Part shown: positions 4,990-16,296 of the stretch, one piece after another
Numbering within the stretch: the first letter of the stretch is position 1
Layout of the letters: each line of letters opens with the position of its first letter
Origin: a virus
IMG/VR virus record: IMGVR_UViG_3300036770_000409
Location: 1-40,567 of that record
Strand: one strand, 5' to 3'
DNA: 40,567 bases
Translations under genes and position numbers: made by a program
Notes under the pieces: model-generated
Told to the model about the DNA's origin: nothing
The model's input: the letters and a program-made list of their open reading frames with translations, nothing else
Databases searched by the model: none

Positions 4990-5559
4990 TTGACCGCGAT
5001 AATTGGTATCCAGGGCAAAGGCTGGGCAGTATTAGCCTCAGATACTATGACTACCTATACTGACAAACCTTATATTGCCAAAGGCTATGACAAAATAGTT
5101 AAGGTTAATGAATATCTAATAGCTGTAGCAGGTGATGCTACTGCTGGAGATATTTTAAATAACTTATGGCAACCACCAAAGGTAATTAAAACTCAAGAGC
5201 CTGATCGCTTCTTAATGATTAGAGTTCTACCATCTATCAAACAAACATTAACTGATGCAGGGTATGACCCTGCGCCTAAGAATAAGAATGATGATGACTC
5301 TGGATGGGATGCTTTAATTTGTTTTAATGGAAAGATATATCAGATCAGTGATGACTATGGGTATATGAGAGATGATAGAAACTTATATGGCATAGGCTCA
5401 GGTGGGTCAATCGCTCTTGGTGCATTAGCTGCTATGGAGAGTGAGATTAGATCTCATACTAAAGCAGCGAGTGCTGCAAAGAAAGCAATTAACATTGCTA
5501 TCCAGTACAACGTATGGTGTGGTGGAGTACCAACCATCAAGACTCAGTTCACAAAGTAA
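4990..5559 (+). CDS. Proteasome-beta/HslV-like Ntn hydrolase
   Basis: A 189-residue protein with a TTG start behind AGGAG. After removal of Met the N-terminus would be Thr, the nucleophile of the Ntn family. Counting from that Thr, D17 lies in VLASDT and a Lys at about position 34 lies in YDKIVKV, matching the T1/D17/K33 triad of proteasome beta subunits and HslV. GIGSGGSIALGALAA matches the conserved GSGG region that places Ser129. The length matches HslV (about 175) and a propeptide-free beta subunit. It is the first gene of the early operon. It may form its own protease ring or assemble with host proteasome parts; no ATPase or alpha subunit is encoded here. The fold is a strong call, activity is inference. 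Confidence 0.82.
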   Translation: MTAIIGIQGKGWAVLASDTMTTYTDKPYIAKGYDKIVKVNEYLIAVAGDATAGDILNNLWQPPKVIKTQEPDRFLMIRVLPSIKQTLTDAGYDPAPKNKNDDDSGWDALICFNGKIYQISDDYGYMRDDRNLYGIGSGGSIALGALAAMESEIRSHTKAASAAKKAINIAIQYNVWCGGVPTIKTQFTK

Positions 5560-6994: not shown

Positions 6995-7252
6995 GTGCGG
7001 GGGCCTCGTAGTTTTGAGAACCCCTCTTGTGCAGAGATCTCAGTAGATCTTTTCTTTCCCGAAGTAGGAGATTCATTATCTGTTATAAGACAACTTAAAA
7101 ACGTCTGCAAGTTATGTCCCCACCAGCAGGAATGTGCAGAGTGGGGCATACAAAATGAGAGATACGGAGTATGGGGCGGTCTATCAGAAAAAGATCGTAG
7201 AGCAATCCGTAGACAAAGAAACATTATTATAAGAGAAGAAGAAATTGCTTAA
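6995..7252 (+). CDS. whiB: WhiB-family iron-sulfur transcription regulator
   Basis: An 85-residue protein with the four WhiB cysteines C12, C38, C41 and C47 (CxxCxxxxxC in the last three), the preceding LFFP segment and the turn motif GVWGG at residues 58-62, followed by a basic tail that contacts DNA. WhiB proteins bind a 4Fe-4S cluster and the sigma-70 region 4 of actinobacterial RNA polymerase. GTG 6995 lies three bases after the previous stop and has no clear binding site, suggesting coupling. Together with the sigma-like factor at 9949 it points to phage control of host transcription. Confidence 0.92.
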   Translation: MRGPRSFENPSCAEISVDLFFPEVGDSLSVIRQLKNVCKLCPHQQECAEWGIQNERYGVWGGLSEKDRRAIRRQRNIIIREEEIA

Positions 7253-9948: not shown

Positions 9949-10584
9949 ATGACTAAAGAATTACACCCGATACTGAATGACCTAGTACCAGCAGTGGCTA
10001 ACTCTATTGCTCGTAAGTTTAAAGGTTGGGTAGAGCGAGATGATCTAAAGCAAGAACTTTATCTTTGGGCTATCGGTAGGCAAGGTCAATACTTAGATCA
10101 ACTTAATGAAGAGAACAAAGACAAGCGTGAATATAGTGTGAGCAGAATTGCATATCAGATGCGTAGAATTGCAGAGAAGTATGCTCGTAAAGAGAAGGCT
10201 CGCAAGGCTGGCTATCAGACCTCTGATGAGATCTTCTACGATACTGCAACTATCGCTAGGTTAATGCCATCTATCTTACAATCTGTAATAGAAGGAACTG
10301 TACTAGAGCAAGCACAAGATTTAATAAATGATGGACAACCTCGCAAACAACCAGCACCTTCTGAGGGTGGCAACCTCCTTGCTATCTTAATAGATGTAAA
10401 GAGATCATACTTAAAGTTAGAAGAAGAAGACAAGATCTTACTTCGTATGCGCTACTACGATAACAATACCCTTCAAGAGATATCACAATACCTAGAGGTA
10501 GCGGTATCCACTGCTGATCGCAGATGCACCTCAGCTCTGCGTAGATTGCAAGACTTGTTGGGTGGCGATTCGCCTTGGGCCTAG
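9949..10584 (+). CDS. Sigma-70-like factor
   Basis: A 211-residue protein with a region-2-like start (ARKFKGWVERDDLKQELYLWA), an intervening helical, partly disordered stretch and a clear region-4 helix-turn-helix at about residues 165-206 (TLQEISQYLEVAVSTADRR then SALRRL). This is the organisation of ECF-like sigma factors found in phages. It could direct host RNA polymerase to late phage promoters, possibly with the WhiB protein, which in this class binds sigma region 4. ATG 9949 has only a weak binding site. Confidence 0.72.
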   Translation: MTKELHPILNDLVPAVANSIARKFKGWVERDDLKQELYLWAIGRQGQYLDQLNEENKDKREYSVSRIAYQMRRIAEKYARKEKARKAGYQTSDEIFYDTATIARLMPSILQSVIEGTVLEQAQDLINDGQPRKQPAPSEGGNLLAILIDVKRSYLKLEEEDKILLRMRYYDNNTLQEISQYLEVAVSTADRRCTSALRRLQDLLGGDSPWA

Positions 10585-11280: not shown

Positions 11281-11679
11281 CTATATTATATCAGCGATGC
11301 CTTGAATAATCCATTCAACTACTGGCACTGCTACTGCATTACCCATCTGTTTATATCTATTAGTATCAGATTGATCTTCAGTCCAGCCATCAGGAAATCC
11401 TTGTAGTCTTTCACACTCAAGAGGTGTAAGCCTACGCACTTGGTTCGTAGCTACCATTGGCATATTGTTTCCACCTGTTCCCATTCTAGCTTGCAGTGTA
11501 TTAATCTTATCATCTTGTAATCTCATATCTCCAACTCTATTACCATAAAATATGATAGTAGTTGCTCTAGTATCACCATTATCAAATGCGTTCATAGTAG
11601 GCACAACTCCACCCTCCACCCAGGTTTCATAGTCAGTATTACTCTGAGCTCTGCGACTTTTGTTGAACCAAATCATCAT
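11281..11679 (-). CDS. C5 cytosine methyltransferase, C-terminal fragment
   Basis: A 132-residue reading frame holding the C-terminal part of a Dcm-type enzyme: RRLTPLECERLQGFPDGWT and RYKQMGNAVAVPVVEWI (motifs IX-X). It overlaps the N-terminal fragment by 41 bases in the +1 frame. The natural join would be near the AAAA run of CAACAAAAGTCG on the minus strand (about 11658-11668). ATG 11679 has a GGAG four bases upstream, so separate translation is possible. It may be a true split enzyme, a frameshift or an assembly indel. Confidence 0.8.
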   Translation of the reverse strand: MMIWFNKSRRAQSNTDYETWVEGGVVPTMNAFDNGDTRATTIIFYGNRVGDMRLQDDKINTLQARMGTGGNNMPMVATNQVRRLTPLECERLQGFPDGWTEDQSDTNRYKQMGNAVAVPVVEWIIQGIADII

Positions 11680-12424
11680 TCTCCAACACTAGATTGTAAT
11701 GCTCTGATCCTGATGGACCACCAGCTCCTTTATACCACTTAGAAGTTACAGTTGTTGTTACTCCTGGGTTGGTTGTAAGCCAGCCTGCTTCTCTAGTGCT
11801 TCTTGTAGAGTTGGAGGTAATGTCTTTCCTCTTTGCACTGTCCTGCGTAGTATTCCTTCGCAAGCCTTCGGACTTAAATAGTACTTCTGCTGCACTGAGT
11901 GGGTTTCCAGTGCGTTTTCCAACGATGAAGATACGCCTTCTCCTTTGGGGAACTCCGAAGTACTGAGCATCAAGCACCCGCCAGGCAACGCCATACCCGA
12001 TGTCGGCCATCGTTCCAATGACCACTCCAAAGTCTTGTCCTTTGTTAGAGGTAAGAAGACCAGGGACATTTTCAAGGATGAACCACTCAGTTTTCGTTTC
12101 TTCAATAAGTCTTGCAATCTCCCAGAATAATCCGCTTCTTTCTCCAGCAAGACCACGCCTCTTTCCAGCCACGCTAAGGTCTTGGCAGGGAAATCCGCCT
12201 GTGATAATTCCTCTATCAGGTTTAAATCCTGCTTCAATTAAATCACTTCCTTTCACATCTGTTATATCAGAGAACTGTTTAGCATTTGGAAAATGCTTAG
12301 CCAATACCTTTTGGCATTGTTTATCTATCTCAACATTAGCTACCACATCTACACCATTGCGTTCCATAGCAAGATCAAAGCCGCCAACGCCAGCGAAGAG
12401 CGATACCCCCGTTAACCTACTCAC
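11639..12424 (-). CDS. C5 cytosine methyltransferase, N-terminal catalytic fragment
   Basis: A 261-residue reading frame with motif I FAGVGG (10-15), motif IV PCQ (79-81, catalytic Cys80), motif VI ENV (118-120) and motif VIII QRRRR (160-164), as in Dcm-family enzymes that make 5-methylcytosine, often to evade host restriction. GTG 12424 shares one base with the preceding stop (TAGTG). The frame ends in TAA soon after the target-recognition region, before motifs IX and X, which continue in the next frame (11281-11679). Confidence 0.88.
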   Translation of the reverse strand: MSRLTGVSLFAGVGGFDLAMERNGVDVVANVEIDKQCQKVLAKHFPNAKQFSDITDVKGSDLIEAGFKPDRGIITGGFPCQDLSVAGKRRGLAGERSGLFWEIARLIEETKTEWFILENVPGLLTSNKGQDFGVVIGTMADIGYGVAWRVLDAQYFGVPQRRRRIFIVGKRTGNPLSAAEVLFKSEGLRRNTTQDSAKRKDITSNSTRSTREAGWLTTNPGVTTTVTSKWYKGAGGPSGSEHYNLVLENDDLVQQKSQSSE

Positions 12425-14165: not shown

Positions 14166-14274
14166 CTCTCTCTCCTATTCATAGTTAAGTGAGCGTTCGC
14201 TCACTCTCTCCCGCTATTGCTAGTAGGATACCACGCTAGTCTACCGTATCCTAGCAGACTAGCATAGTACGCCA
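14166..14274 (-). repeat. Structured spacer S3 with dispersed repeat copy
   Basis: This 109-base spacer holds GTGAGC/GCTCAC (14189-14204), and two competing hairpins, TAGGATAC/GTATCCTA and GCTAGTCT/AGACTAGC, around 14224-14262. Bases 14226-14250 carry one copy of an element shared with spacers S0, S1 and S2 (core CTACCGTAT preceded by CCAC). The 11-mer TACGCCACTAT (14268-14278), spanning the upstream gene's stop, recurs at 15086-15096. Confidence 0.6.
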
Positions 14275-14433
14275 CTATCTAAGTTTAGCTATCTCCTCCT
14301 TGAATAAGCGGATAGCCTCCCGCTTATTATAAAAGTAATAGCATTTAGTTAATAGATATTCATCTATTCCCTCTCCCACATATGCAGATATTCTCCACGC
14401 TCCCTCTCTATTACGATCTATACTAGTAATCAT
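14275..14433 (-). CDS. Small hypothetical protein
   Basis: A 52-residue protein with a beta-rich first half (AWRISAYVGEGIDEYLLTKCYYFY) and a helix NKREAIRLFKEEIAKL. ATG 14433 overlaps the previous TGA (ATGA). The look is of a small, ordered, well-conserved phage protein; no name can be given. Confidence 0.6.
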   Translation of the reverse strand: MITSIDRNREGAWRISAYVGEGIDEYLLTKCYYFYNKREAIRLFKEEIAKLR

Positions 14434-14549
14434 AGATACTCCGCTAGATCGCCATCGCCTACAATATCTTGAAGATCGGAGATATCTAACTCTCCCTCTC
14501 CCCCGTATATTGCATTGTATAACTGCTCTTGTATCTGCTCCTTATTCAT
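14430..14549 (-). CDS. Acidic microprotein
   Basis: A 39-residue acidic protein starting MNKEQIQEQL, with binding site AGGAGAGAGGG upstream and ATGA coupling to the next gene. The start resembles that of the 144-residue protein at 15238-15672 (MNKDQLLNKL), hinting at a shared origin of the leader and first codons. Function unknown. Confidence 0.55.
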   Translation of the reverse strand: MNKEQIQEQLYNAIYGGEGELDISDLQDIVGDGDLAEYL

Positions 14550-14636
14550 TTATTACCCTCTCTCCTGGTTATTGATAATCGCTAACGGTTAGGATTATCC
14601 CACCGCCTACCGTATACGATAGGCGATAGGCTAACA
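14550..14636 (-). repeat. Structured spacer S2 with dispersed repeat copy
   Basis: The spacer contains CGCCTA/TAGGCG (14604-14625 region), GATAATC/GATTATC around a TAACGGTTA core, and ACACTA/TAGTGT at its upstream edge. Bases 14592-14616 are a copy of the element also found in S0, S1 and S3 (CACCGCCTACCGTATA here). Confidence 0.6.
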
Positions 14637-14834
14637 CTATCCTAGTGTAGCTCCCTTATTGATACTTGCTTTAAGTGATTTATTCCGCGCTTTAAGAATA
14701 AACTTAGCTGCAGCAAGTCTCTCCTCATCTTCCGCAGTATTAAGCATAGGCAGCATAGATAACGCTCTAATCATATTCTTAAGACTTACGCTATCTTGAT
14801 TCCCTACTAGTTGCCGCGCTCTATCTCTATCCAT
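14637..14834 (-). CDS. Small helical hypothetical protein
   Basis: A 65-residue helical protein starting MDRDRARQLV with a Leu/Met-rich middle (MIRALSMLPML), an acidic turn and a basic C-terminus. ATG 14834 overlaps the previous TAA (TAATG). Possible short DNA- or protein-binding helix bundle; no family recognised. Confidence 0.6.
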   Translation of the reverse strand: MDRDRARQLVGNQDSVSLKNMIRALSMLPMLNTAEDEERLAAAKFILKARNKSLKASINKGATLG

Positions 14835-14980
14835 TACGCCACCATCAATTCATAACCATAGCGGGAGTACTCCTTAATGATCCGCTTAACTGCTGCGGGA
14901 GTTAACTCCGCGCTCACCACTATCTCACCGCTAACGGTATCCATTAAGCGGATATACTCCTTAGATCTCTTCCCTATCAT
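14834..14980 (-). CDS. Small hypothetical protein
   Basis: A 48-residue basic protein with a beta hairpin-like middle (DTVSGEIVVSAEL) and a helix AAVKRIIKEYSRY. Coupled to the next gene by TAATG. The upstream stretch is repeated GAGAGAG, which gives a diffuse ribosome binding site. Function unknown. Confidence 0.6.
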   Translation of the reverse strand: MIGKRSKEYIRLMDTVSGEIVVSAELTPAAVKRIIKEYSRYGYELMVA

Positions 14981-15095
14981 TAGCTCACTCTCTCTCACTC
15001 TCTCTCACTCCTAGCCATTAGGAGCGGCCTACACCTAGATCACTAGGAGCAGATTACCGCCTACCGCTTAAACGGTAGGCGATAATACGCCACTA
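14981..15095 (-). repeat. Structured spacer S1 with dispersed repeat copy
   Basis: It holds the hairpin CGCCTACCG/CGGTAGGCG (15059-15080), the pairs CTCCTA/TAGGAG and CTAGATCACTAG, and three GA-rich repeats (tctctcactc on the plus strand) next to the start of the downstream gene. Bases 15046-15070 are the S1 copy of the element shared by S0, S2 and S3. Confidence 0.6.
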
Positions 15096-15245
15096 TTAAC
15101 CGCAGATAGTTAACTCTCCCACGCAGTACCCGCTCCCCTGCCACCATAAGCGGGTAGAGATTAACCAGAATATAACGCCGACACCTAACCAGAAGAGGAT
15201 CCTAACGGTTAGGCGGATCCGATAATATGAGCGGGATCTACGCAT
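15096..15245 (-). CDS. Single-span membrane microprotein
   Basis: A 49-residue protein from ATG 15245, with a basic N-terminus (MRRSRSYYRIR), one strong hydrophobic segment (about residues 17-33, ILFWLGVGVIFWLIS) and a Cys-containing C-terminus. It overlaps the preceding gene by eight bases. A longer in-frame start at 15290 is less likely because it would overlap by 53 bases. Possible small holin-like or membrane-targeted takeover protein. Confidence 0.6.
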   Translation of the reverse strand: MRRSRSYYRIRLTVRILFWLGVGVIFWLISTRLWWQGSGYCVGELTICG

Positions 15246-15672
15246 TAGATACCACGCTCTCACTAGAGAATAACCAGGATATGATCCCATCGTATAACTC
15301 TCTCATAGCAGCATATAAGTAAAGAGAGTTAAGATCGGTTAAAGTGTTGCCATTATGGTTAAAATCCATATCGGCCACCATTAGATCTAACGCAGGATAA
15401 GCCCATAGGCTTAGCTCCTGCACACGCTTATTTATGTTTACATAATAGTCTTCACACTCTCCATTAGCTAATTCTCCGACATAATCGCTTAGATCATCGG
15501 CGGAGTAATCTTTATCTTCATATATATAACCAGATAAATTACTTGCCGCATCTAGTATCTCACCGCGCCAATTAGGGCCGCCGACATAATCGGGAAGATG
15601 CTCCCATATATTAGATCCGCTTAGATCATCATCGGTAAGTGATAGTTTATTAAGTAGTTGATCCTTATTCAT
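15238..15672 (-). CDS. Acidic hypothetical protein, first gene of the leftward operon
   Basis: A 144-residue, strongly acidic protein rich in Asp, Asn, Tyr and Leu, with DDLSDYVGELANGECEDYY in the middle and helical stretches either side. No catalytic motif was recognised; the acidity would suit a DNA-mimic or an inhibitor, which is speculation. AGGAG lies seven bases before ATG 15672 and is buried in the stem 15679-15716. Confidence 0.6.
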   Translation of the reverse strand: MNKDQLLNKLSLTDDDLSGSNIWEHLPDYVGGPNWRGEILDAASNLSGYIYEDKDYSADDLSDYVGELANGECEDYYVNINKRVQELSLWAYPALDLMVADMDFNHNGNTLTDLNSLYLYAAMRELYDGIISWLFSSESVVSNA

Positions 15673-15678
15673 TATTAA

Positions 15679-15716
15679 CTCCTATCTTTTAACGGTTAAG
15701 GGTTAACCGATAGGAG
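15679..15716 (-). promoter_or_regulatory. Hairpin masking the ribosome binding site of the leftward operon
   Basis: On the minus strand CTCCTATC pairs with GATAGGAG, which contains the binding site of ATG 15672; inside it CGGTTAA/TTAACCG forms a second 7-bp stem with a 3-base loop. The result is a long two-part hairpin with the AGGAG sequence in its 3' arm. It may work as a thermometer, protein-binding site or timing device. Confidence 0.55.
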
Positions 15717-15718
15717 CA

Positions 15719-15742
15719 GGATATACCACCGTCTACCGTATA
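15719..15742 (-). repeat. Dispersed spacer element, copy S0
   Basis: Plus-strand CCACCGTCTACCGTATA with flanking GGATATA matches the copies at 14226-14250, 14592-14616 and 15046-15070, all in the same orientation and all lying in spacers upstream of leftward genes. Confidence 0.55.
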
Positions 15743-15841
15743 AGCAAGTACCTAAGAGCTAATAATTAAGGGAGTGTCGCCTATGGAATAAATCGGACAT
15801 ATAGGGCAGGGTAAGTTATGGCTAGATCTTGGCAAGGATAG

Positions 15842-15907
15842 GCGGATCGGGTAAAAGATTAAGCGGTTAAGTATTAGCTGATGGGTAAAGAGTTAGCGGA
15901 TCGGTAA
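15842..15907. repeat. Iteron-like direct repeats
   Basis: GCGGATCGGgTAA (15842-15854) and GCGGATCGGTAA (15896-15907) are 54 bases apart, with related TTAGCGG and AAGCGGTTAAG motifs between and after. They lie in the non-coding divergent region, where replication initiator or regulator sites are expected. Confidence 0.4.
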
Positions 15908-16164
15908 GGGTTAGCGGGTTATTAAATGGAAGATCTAAGTAGTTTATTAAATAGGGGAGATACCCTATCGCTGCCCGATCGGTAGTGCGCCCTCTATTCT
16001 TTACTATCCTAATCTAAGCAAGGCAGGGGGGCGGGGGTATCAGTGGCAGGGCAAAAAACCGACCCCCCGCTTTAACTTTACGGCGCGGATGTTACTGTAC
16101 TCCCCAAATAAATATATTTCCTAAAGTGTAATCAGCTAGTCCGTAATGTCCGTTTTGATATACT

Positions 16165-16193
16165 TTGTTTGTGAGTTGTACCACATTTATAAA
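16165..16193 (+). promoter_or_regulatory. Sigma70-type promoter candidate toward the packaging genes
   Basis: TTGTTT (16165-16170), a 17-base spacer and TATAAA (16188-16193) match -35/-10 consensus in four and five of six positions. The start would be near 16200, giving a leader of about 310 bases that includes the GC-rich hairpins and the DnaA box before the terminase. Confidence 0.5.
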
Positions 16194-16296
16194 GATTTTT
16201 TGTGTAAAAACGGGAAATCACCTATTTTTCTCGGCTTATATATAGTAGGGGAGTAAAACGGGGTGTGATGAGTTTTACGACCAACATCGCTACGGC

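Follow-up and report, generated by a model that had tools for sequence, protein, structure and literature searches.

Known elements between phage genes

The RNase III sites of T7-type phages are irregular hairpins of about 60 nt. In the early mRNA of T7 the host RNase III cuts at five sites (PMC4858673). For mycobacteria a different kind of punctuation has been proposed, the I-shaped terminator, which is a hairpin without a U tail that lies within 50 bp of a stop codon (PMC12288462), and in Cluster A phages the stoperators stand in a single orientation relative to transcription (PMC6550527). The attC sites of integrons and the ESAS of Cluster K mycobacteriophages also invite comparison. An element that resembles each of these in part occupies the gaps of the leftward operon of a tailed phage, where it is best described as a structured RNA that follows stop codons and that may, tentatively, punctuate the operon mRNA.

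The source phage and its leftward operon

The window, i.e. the whole stretch of DNA that was analysed, is the IMG/VR virus IMGVR_UViG_3300036770_000409 with a length of 40,567 nt, and its TerL, portal, helicase, primase, exonuclease and tail genes identify it as a tailed phage. A WhiB gene at 6995-7252 points to an actinobacterial host because whiB serves as an actinophage marker in lakes (PMC6802176). Such a host is probable, the pointers to it being WhiB and the distant terminases of Streptomyces phages. The latter are the nearest named isolates by TerL, at about 42% identity, and are preceded by two records without annotation, at 45%. For the window, neither similar annotated phage DNA nor a near-identical annotated phage was found, and a TerL scan of 84,980 genomes returned no relative. 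In IMG/VR there are at least 599 coding matches to TerL, of which 80 were examined as relatives.

Several other genes of the window deserve mention. A proteasome/HslV-like peptidase gene (Pfam PF00227, PHROG peptidase HslV family) is found at 4990-5559 on the plus strand, as is a Sigma-70 region 4 protein (PHROG sigma-K factor) at 9949-10584, which may regulate late promoters or those at the operon head. Two adjoining, overlapping frames on the minus strand (11281-11679 and 11639-12424) match the N-terminal and C-terminal parts, respectively, of the C-5 cytosine methylase family, from which it follows that this gene has been split or carries a frameshift. The 500 bases at 15750-16250, which lie between the head of the operon and TerL, have no long reading frames on the minus strand and an unusual short-word composition, and may represent an origin or a divergent control region.

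The leftward operon lies to the left of TerL and contains tiny genes, whose layout suggests that they are transcribed as a polycistronic mRNA. At most other junctions in the operon the genes overlap by 1-7 nt. Past the first gene there are just three real gaps, each between groups of overlapping genes, and these three gaps are the three elements. A tRNA-like reading of the elements was dropped, as neither tRNA nor tmRNA was found in the window.

Three elements and an operon head

An earlier note had drawn attention to four copies of an imperfect 25-base repeat, GGATACCACGCTAGTCTACCGTATC, GGATTATCCCACCGCCTACCGTATA, GGAGCAGATTACCGCCTACCGCTTA and GGATATACCACCGTCTACCGTATA (starting at 14226, 14592, 15046 and 15719, respectively), and to a separate 11-mer, TACGCCACTAT, at 14268 and 15086, all of which are present at these positions. 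Both are far more frequent than in dinucleotide shuffles, with CTACCGTAT occurring three times in the window (0.19 expected) and TACGCCACTAT twice (0.02 expected). The pattern CTACCG[CT][AT]T has four matches on the plus strand and matches the minus strand just once, in the opposite arm of the 15046 hairpin. The two repeats are, nevertheless, a single feature and not two: the 25-mer covers no more than the 3' half of a longer element, whose 5' arm (ATAGTGGCGTA) has the 11-mer as its complement. Thus, three of the copies (15046, 14592 and 14226) combine with the 11-mer to make one element of about 60 nt on the minus strand, which is the sense of the operon. An unfiltered search of the whole window with a covariance model (R1, below) returns these three elements, all on the minus strand, with E values of 2e-16, 2e-15 and 8e-14; two weaker antisense matches are the same palindromes in reverse, and the next independent match has an E value of 0.31. 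The fourth copy (15719-15742) was taken for one of the same kind, but it has no left arm, stands at the operon head and is a different object with a common core.

Each element consists of a main hairpin, H1, flanked by basal strands a and b, and an adjoining second hairpin, H2. In the list below, which follows the minus strand throughout, the H2 of elements 2 and 3, the extra small hairpin and the leader hairpin are predictions made from sequence.

15718-15747, minus strand: fourth copy, putative promoter of the leftward operon, TTGCTT-N18-TATCCT, with ATACGGTAGACGGTGG in the spacer and no left hairpin arm
15679-15716, minus strand: leader hairpin, CTCCTATCGGTTAACC...GATAGGAG, which overlaps the first gene's ribosome-binding site
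15096-15098, minus strand: element 1, stop codon TAA, which ends the upstream gene (15096-15290) directly 5' of the element's TAG
15039-15097, minus strand: element 1, H1 with basal strands a and b, AATAGTGGCGT[ATTATCGCCTACCG-TTTAAG-CGGTAGGCGGTAAT]CTGCTCCTA; model R1 63.2 bits, E=2e-15; inner stem 15053-15086
15028-15053, minus strand: element 1, H2, TCTGC.CCTAG-TGAT-CTAGG.GTAGG; fold -12.1 kcal/mol
14637-14639, minus strand: element 2, stop codon TAG, which ends the gene 14637-14834 and is the same TAG as in strand a
14585-14641, minus strand: element 2, H1, GATAGTGTTAG[CCTATCGCCTATCG-TATA-CGGTAGGCGGTGGG]ATAATCC; model R1 66.9 bits, E=2e-16; inner stem 14599-14630
14574-14599, minus strand: element 2, H2, GATAATCCTAACCGTTAGCGATTATC
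14275-14277, minus strand: element 3, stop codon TAG, which ends the gene 14275-14433 and is the same TAG as in strand a
14216-14279, minus strand: element 3, H1, GATAGTGGCG[TACTATGCTAGTC...GACTAGCGTGGTA]TCCTACTA; model R1 57.7 bits, E=8e-14; inner stem 14229-14269
14209-14228, minus strand: element 3, H2, TCCTACTAGCAATAGCGGGA
14189-14204, minus strand: element 3, extra small hairpin, GTGAGCGAACGCTCAC, between H2 and the ribosome-binding site

The H2 of element 3 recurs with compensating changes in three relatives (L014, L041 and L006), and its small hairpin GTGAGCGAACGCTCAC has a counterpart after the corresponding elements of four (L016, L085, L088 and L089).

Conservation of the fold in relatives

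One of the central questions concerning the element is whether its sequence or its fold is retained. Relatives were gathered by TerL and by partial sequence patterns, and 17 full elements were aligned by sequence alone. Across these 17 relatives, chosen by partial sequence patterns, 97.6% of cells are paired in the hypothesised structure, with 23 cells changed on both sides (8.9 in shuffles) and a covariation of 0.270 (0.163 in shuffles). Slid controls are 30-51% paired and have a covariation of only 0.03-0.06, against 0.27 for the structure, and RNAalifold alone arrives at a nearly identical fold. H1 comprises 13-21 bp with an apical loop of 3-10 nt; its C-U-A-U/G-U-G-G base, which reads as the pairs C-G, U.G, A-U and U.G, is conserved, and its apex changes freely with compensation. 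The earlier view that sequence is conserved more than fold is therefore overturned once relatives are included: the covariance test supports the fold, and the CTACCGTAT core belongs to the freely changing apical stem. Since U.G cells (63) far outnumber A.C cells (5), the fold is that of the operon-sense RNA strand, single-stranded DNA of the same strand being a formal alternative. Own halves of the H1 stem pair better than swapped halves with z=-19.9, a value that is partly built into the model by which the elements were selected.

With the covariance model R1, elements are found (E<=0.01) in 29 of the 47 TerL relatives that have at least 2.3 kb of upstream sequence. The other 18 of these 47, for which there is enough flank, have no element at E<=0.01, so that the phage family as a whole does not depend on the element. 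At nearly every place the highest score falls on the operon-sense strand, the two strands scoring almost equally in L039 and L069, and there are often three elements to a phage; longer records that were searched whole contain between zero and three element places each. A generic pattern scan added about 55 contigs. Pattern matches in L107, L108, L109 and L111 were left out, as they lack the fold and were taken as chance. In total, the covariance model and the pattern scans yield 146 distinct elements in phages with related TerL proteins, of which 32 are non-redundant at about 72% similarity.

A comparison with the 4227 families of Rfam gives no match for the window at E<=1 and, for six element-carrying relatives, one unrelated sub-threshold match (E=0.49); a known RNA family was dropped as an explanation for want of a relevant match. 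No description of this element was found in the open-access literature. The element is almost certainly a structured RNA, and a structured RNA family, without an Rfam match in the sequences tested, is well supported.

The second hairpin and competing folds

H2 is predicted directly 3' of H1 in almost every non-redundant element, although it is weak in L010. Over the 32 non-redundant elements, the mean pairing energy is -9.3 kcal/mol for its own halves and -6.2 kcal/mol for swapped ones (z=-7.8, 0 of 10,000 permutations), and on 25 non-redundant elements the swap test gives z=-7.5. This test is independent because H2 is absent from the covariance model. The basal pairing of strands a and b gives z=-2.4, which is partly built into the model and is weaker evidence than that for H1 and H2; the control pairing a:c gives z=-0.7.

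Strand b lies either in the loop or in the first strand of H2, and the extended H1 and H2 therefore compete. When a ribosome-sized stretch is blocked at the stop codon, the predicted pairing of H2 rises from 4.3 to 7.1 bp, while access to the next ribosome-binding site stays unchanged at 0.62 and 0.64 (22 elements). The median distance from the end of H2 to the ATG is 24 nt. A switch between a:b and H2 that controls the ribosome-binding site of the next gene is thus rejected on the basis of these 22 elements, and the competition between folds does not act on initiation.

The operon head and a possible DNA-binding regulator

The position of the fourth copy is equivalent to that of sites found about 700 bp upstream of TerL in relatives. 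Many relatives have there a promoter-like TTGACA-N17-TANNNT with a dyad such as ATACGGtagacaaCCGTAT in its spacer, often followed by a leader hairpin, for which the z-score is only -1.2 in the window and averages -1.8 across 20 non-redundant leaders. From clade to clade the dyad varies. Putative early promoters of this form, with a clade-specific inverted repeat in the spacer (ATACGG..CCGTAT, AGGGGATCACCCCT, TATGGGGAATAGTCCCT), stand at the heads of L093-L105, L014, L005 and L012, and at 15718-15747 in the window; these repeats have the look of a set of regulator specificities. Immediately before the -35 region, a tandem CGTTAYCAAA(T/C) occurs in L093-L100, L053, L056, L079 and L080, and is possibly the site of an activator or a replication protein.

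Several clades repeat the motif of the head spacer in the apex of their own H1, for instance as ATACGGTAG, CTATGATAG, AATAGGGTAGA or ATGGGGGAT. The match between head motif and own hairpins is 6.60, against 5.79 when permuted (p=0.023, for 15 non-redundant phages with kinship ignored), and in the window the 15719 copy matches its own hairpins over TATACGGTAGACGGTGG, with 14 net matches. This copy has the appearance of a fusion between a promoter and an element's 3' half, for which a shared regulator or recombination are the candidate sources. Such repetition, together with the single orientation relative to transcription that the element has in common with Cluster A stoperators, would be expected if a regulator bound a motif of the ATACGGTAG type as a stoperator-like DNA site both at the head promoter and, in fixed orientation, inside the operon. 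However, compensated changes, sense-strand U.G pairs and the pairing of H2 are not anticipated for a site in double-stranded DNA. Moreover, head and hairpins have no common motif in about half of the clades, several phages with a head operator give no hairpin match at all (e.g. L022, L024, L025, L042 and L098), and a repressor was not found among the window genes scanned. Stoperator-like sites are an improbable explanation, and the suggestion that the repeats are regulator sites retains limited support, from the recurrence of the head motif in several clades.

Gene borders and the linkage to the upstream gene

The order of parts is an upstream stop codon, a short loop, H1, the adjoining H2, a ribosome-binding site and the next ATG. 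In 59 of the 146 elements the upstream stop codon coincides exactly with the start of the element (offset 0), where it is the element's first TAG in 55 and a TAA in 4; in nearly all others it lies 3-14 nt before the element, and in a few about 30 nt before strand a. Because the model favours the letters TAG but ignores the reading frame, the in-frame coincidence is independent information. In the cases measured, the next start codon usually follows 76-118 nt after the stop. That the element is linked to stop codons can be held with very high confidence, and the association with gene borders that had been noted in the window, as opposed to a random placement, extends to the relatives.

Grouping of the flanking proteins into families by BLASTP allows the elements to be compared by their neighbours. 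Elements with the same upstream and a different downstream family have a likeness of 0.678 in H1 and 0.640 in the H2 region, whereas those that share only the downstream family have 0.614 and 0.578, close to the baseline of 0.605 and 0.568 (kinship ignored). Within downstream families the upstream effect holds (0.789 vs 0.457; 0.703 vs 0.560, with kinship again ignored). The resemblance between elements very probably tracks the upstream rather than the downstream gene. The commonest upstream family ends in LLMPMR and has 16 different downstream families behind it; this ending is, we presume, the one with which DNA polymerase III beta clamps typically terminate, and the family is taken to be clamp-like. 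A gene of about 200 aa that ends in LLMPMR(Y) lies upstream of the element in the leftward operons of L077, L079, L064, L131 and others, and was not seen in the window.

Both the upstream likeness and the 16 downstream families behind one clamp-like family are what would arise if the element were a cassette border, at which a gene with its 3' hairpin recombines either in the manner of an integron attC or via a short shared sequence, and the apparent fusion of a promoter to a hairpin 3' half at the operon head would fit as well. Against this, the tyrosine recombinase domain (PF00589) is absent from the window phage and from 8 of the 9 other records searched, the one relative that has it (G012, L098) being without an element match. 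By inspection there are no RYYYAAC/GTTRRRY end boxes of the attC type; instead, the end strands differ and co-vary between elements. The turnover of phage genes at intergenic gaps, besides, needs no special site. Integron cassettes were dropped on account of the missing recombinase and end boxes, and a recombination border of either kind is very unlikely: of the idea that these are recombination spots for gene cassettes, what survives is indirect support, in that the element remains with its upstream gene when the downstream gene is a different one.

The inverted repeats of Cluster K phages were also considered. In the window, the SAS GGGATAGGAGCCC has 5 matches with up to 3 mismatches, where 5.6 are expected by chance, and model R1 has no match in the right arm of Anaya (28000-60800), so that identity with SAS/ESAS was dropped. 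Anaya (L114), a Cluster K phage that has ESAS, encodes an RtcB-like RNA ligase in gene 88.

The presence of an in-frame stop inside strand a raises a further question, namely whether the element senses the end of translation. With the stop codon located in the basal stem of H1, a ribosome that terminates there would open a:b in favour of H2, and would thereby couple translation of the upstream gene to the fate of the mRNA or to the next gene. The competition between a:b and H2, the rise in H2 pairing under the blocked stretch, and the way in which strand b changes to match the stop (TAG/CTA, TTAA/TTAA) all speak for such a sensor. The flat access to the ribosome-binding site speaks against it, as does the stop codon lying 3-9 nt before strand a in many elements and about 30 nt before it in a few, and on balance the sensor is doubtful. 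Speculative, too, is a previously undescribed actinophage RNA switch that is flipped from the extended H1 to H2 by the ribosome terminating at the built-in stop codon of each gene group, a decision between cutting, protection and read-on of the polycistronic message, and in which the inherited unit would be a gene with its own 3' switch.

Terminators and promoters

Strong hairpins that directly follow a stop codon, in a phage whose host is probably actinobacterial, also call to mind the I-shaped terminators and their position close to stop codons. The element could be a weak or conditional terminator of this kind, with tandem hairpins that lower downstream transcription and a fold that shifts when a ribosome sits at the stop codon, and its tracking of the upstream gene would be in keeping with this. 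Yet there is no U-tract terminator in the region, where a search for the canonical intrinsic form (a GC-rich hairpin with a U-tract) finds 0 against 1.8 expected in shuffles, and canonical terminators were dropped. Mycobacterial RNA polymerase is also reported to need a U-tract, as reference 137 is cited in PMC12288462. Furthermore, the spacers show no separate promoter for the genes downstream, so that strong termination would silence most of the operon. A weak or conditional terminator is unlikely. Internal promoters at each copy were dropped, since conserved -35/-10 pairs are lacking in the hairpin class and a promoter scan gives fewer sites than in shuffles.

A tentative role in mRNA punctuation

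The reading that we favour, although its chances fall a little short of even, is that the element punctuates the polycistronic mRNA of the leftward operon as a processing site with end-protecting hairpins, similar to the RNase III sites of T7. With neither a U-tract terminator nor a promoter in the spacers, what is left is a 3' hairpin and a 5' hairpin with little sequence to spare, and this leads to the processing reading. Of the three functions first offered for the repeats, RNA processing fits best with the conserved structure, the sense-strand U.G pairs and the unaffected access to the ribosome-binding site. The element also has two attributes of a T7-type RNase III site, being an irregular sense-strand hairpin between genes of a presumed polycistronic phage mRNA, with a helix of about one turn or more (the 13-21 bp of H1) and an internal loop by the CUAU/GUGG base.

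By its sequence, an element spans the distance from a stop codon, or just behind it, to just before the next ribosome-binding site, the stop codon being that of a single gene or of several overlapping ones, and the basal 5' strand a of H1, which holds the stop codon, has its complement in strand b, located in the loop or opening of H2. In the favoured reading, an endoribonuclease of the host, in all likelihood RNase III or a different enzyme that recognises structure, would cut at or near the boundary of the H1 internal loop and H2. The upstream mRNA would then end in H1, retained as a 3'-terminal hairpin directly behind the stop codon, and the downstream mRNA would begin with H2 as a 5'-terminal hairpin followed by an open ribosome-binding site. 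Release of strand b, either by the cut or by a ribosome terminating at the stop codon, would permit H2 to form. At the operon head, where a promoter and usually a leader hairpin are already in place, H1 would not be needed. As the search for an RNase III domain in the window phage found none, a host enzyme has to be assumed for the cutting. The conserved CUAU/GUGG base could equally be the binding site of a protein that is not a nuclease, and the operator-like core common to head promoter and hairpins is left unexplained by RNA processing.

The element would provide a sequence-based handle on how such phages, which probably infect freshwater actinobacteria, order the expression of many tiny genes, and the processing of mRNA linked to stop codons could be tested on it cleanly. 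That it remains with the upstream gene when the downstream one changes suggests that small phage genes may be exchanged without losing their mRNA punctuation.

Comparison with known systems

The closest likeness in the processing reading is to T7 R1.1 and other RNase III sites, which are also irregular hairpins of about 60 nt, in sense orientation between genes, with several to an early polycistronic mRNA. Unlike the T7 sites, the element usually has a stop codon at its base, a second adjoining hairpin and a conserved CUAU/GUGG base; cleavage, moreover, is only inferred here, and the host is presumably actinobacterial, unlike that of T7-type phages. With I-shaped terminators the element shares a stable hairpin shortly after a stop codon without a U tail, but it lies inside an operon with no evident downstream promoters and has a conserved basal loop and a second hairpin. 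Cluster A stoperators resemble it in having one orientation relative to transcription and, in some clades, a motif in common with the head promoter; they are, however, short asymmetric DNA sequences, whereas the element is an RNA structure, long and covarying, whose core varies. In integron attC sites, too, a gene is followed by an imperfect hairpin with an internal loop and a variable apex, but the element has no conserved core boxes, the window phage has no recombinase, and the second hairpin pairs beyond the element. Finally, the ESAS of Cluster K mycobacteriophages are, like the element, imperfect inverted repeats with a variable spacer, which lie between small actinophage genes mostly in one orientation and with a consensus that varies by subcluster; ESAS are linked to start codons with the 13-bp SAS, whereas the element is linked to stop codons and to the genes upstream of it.
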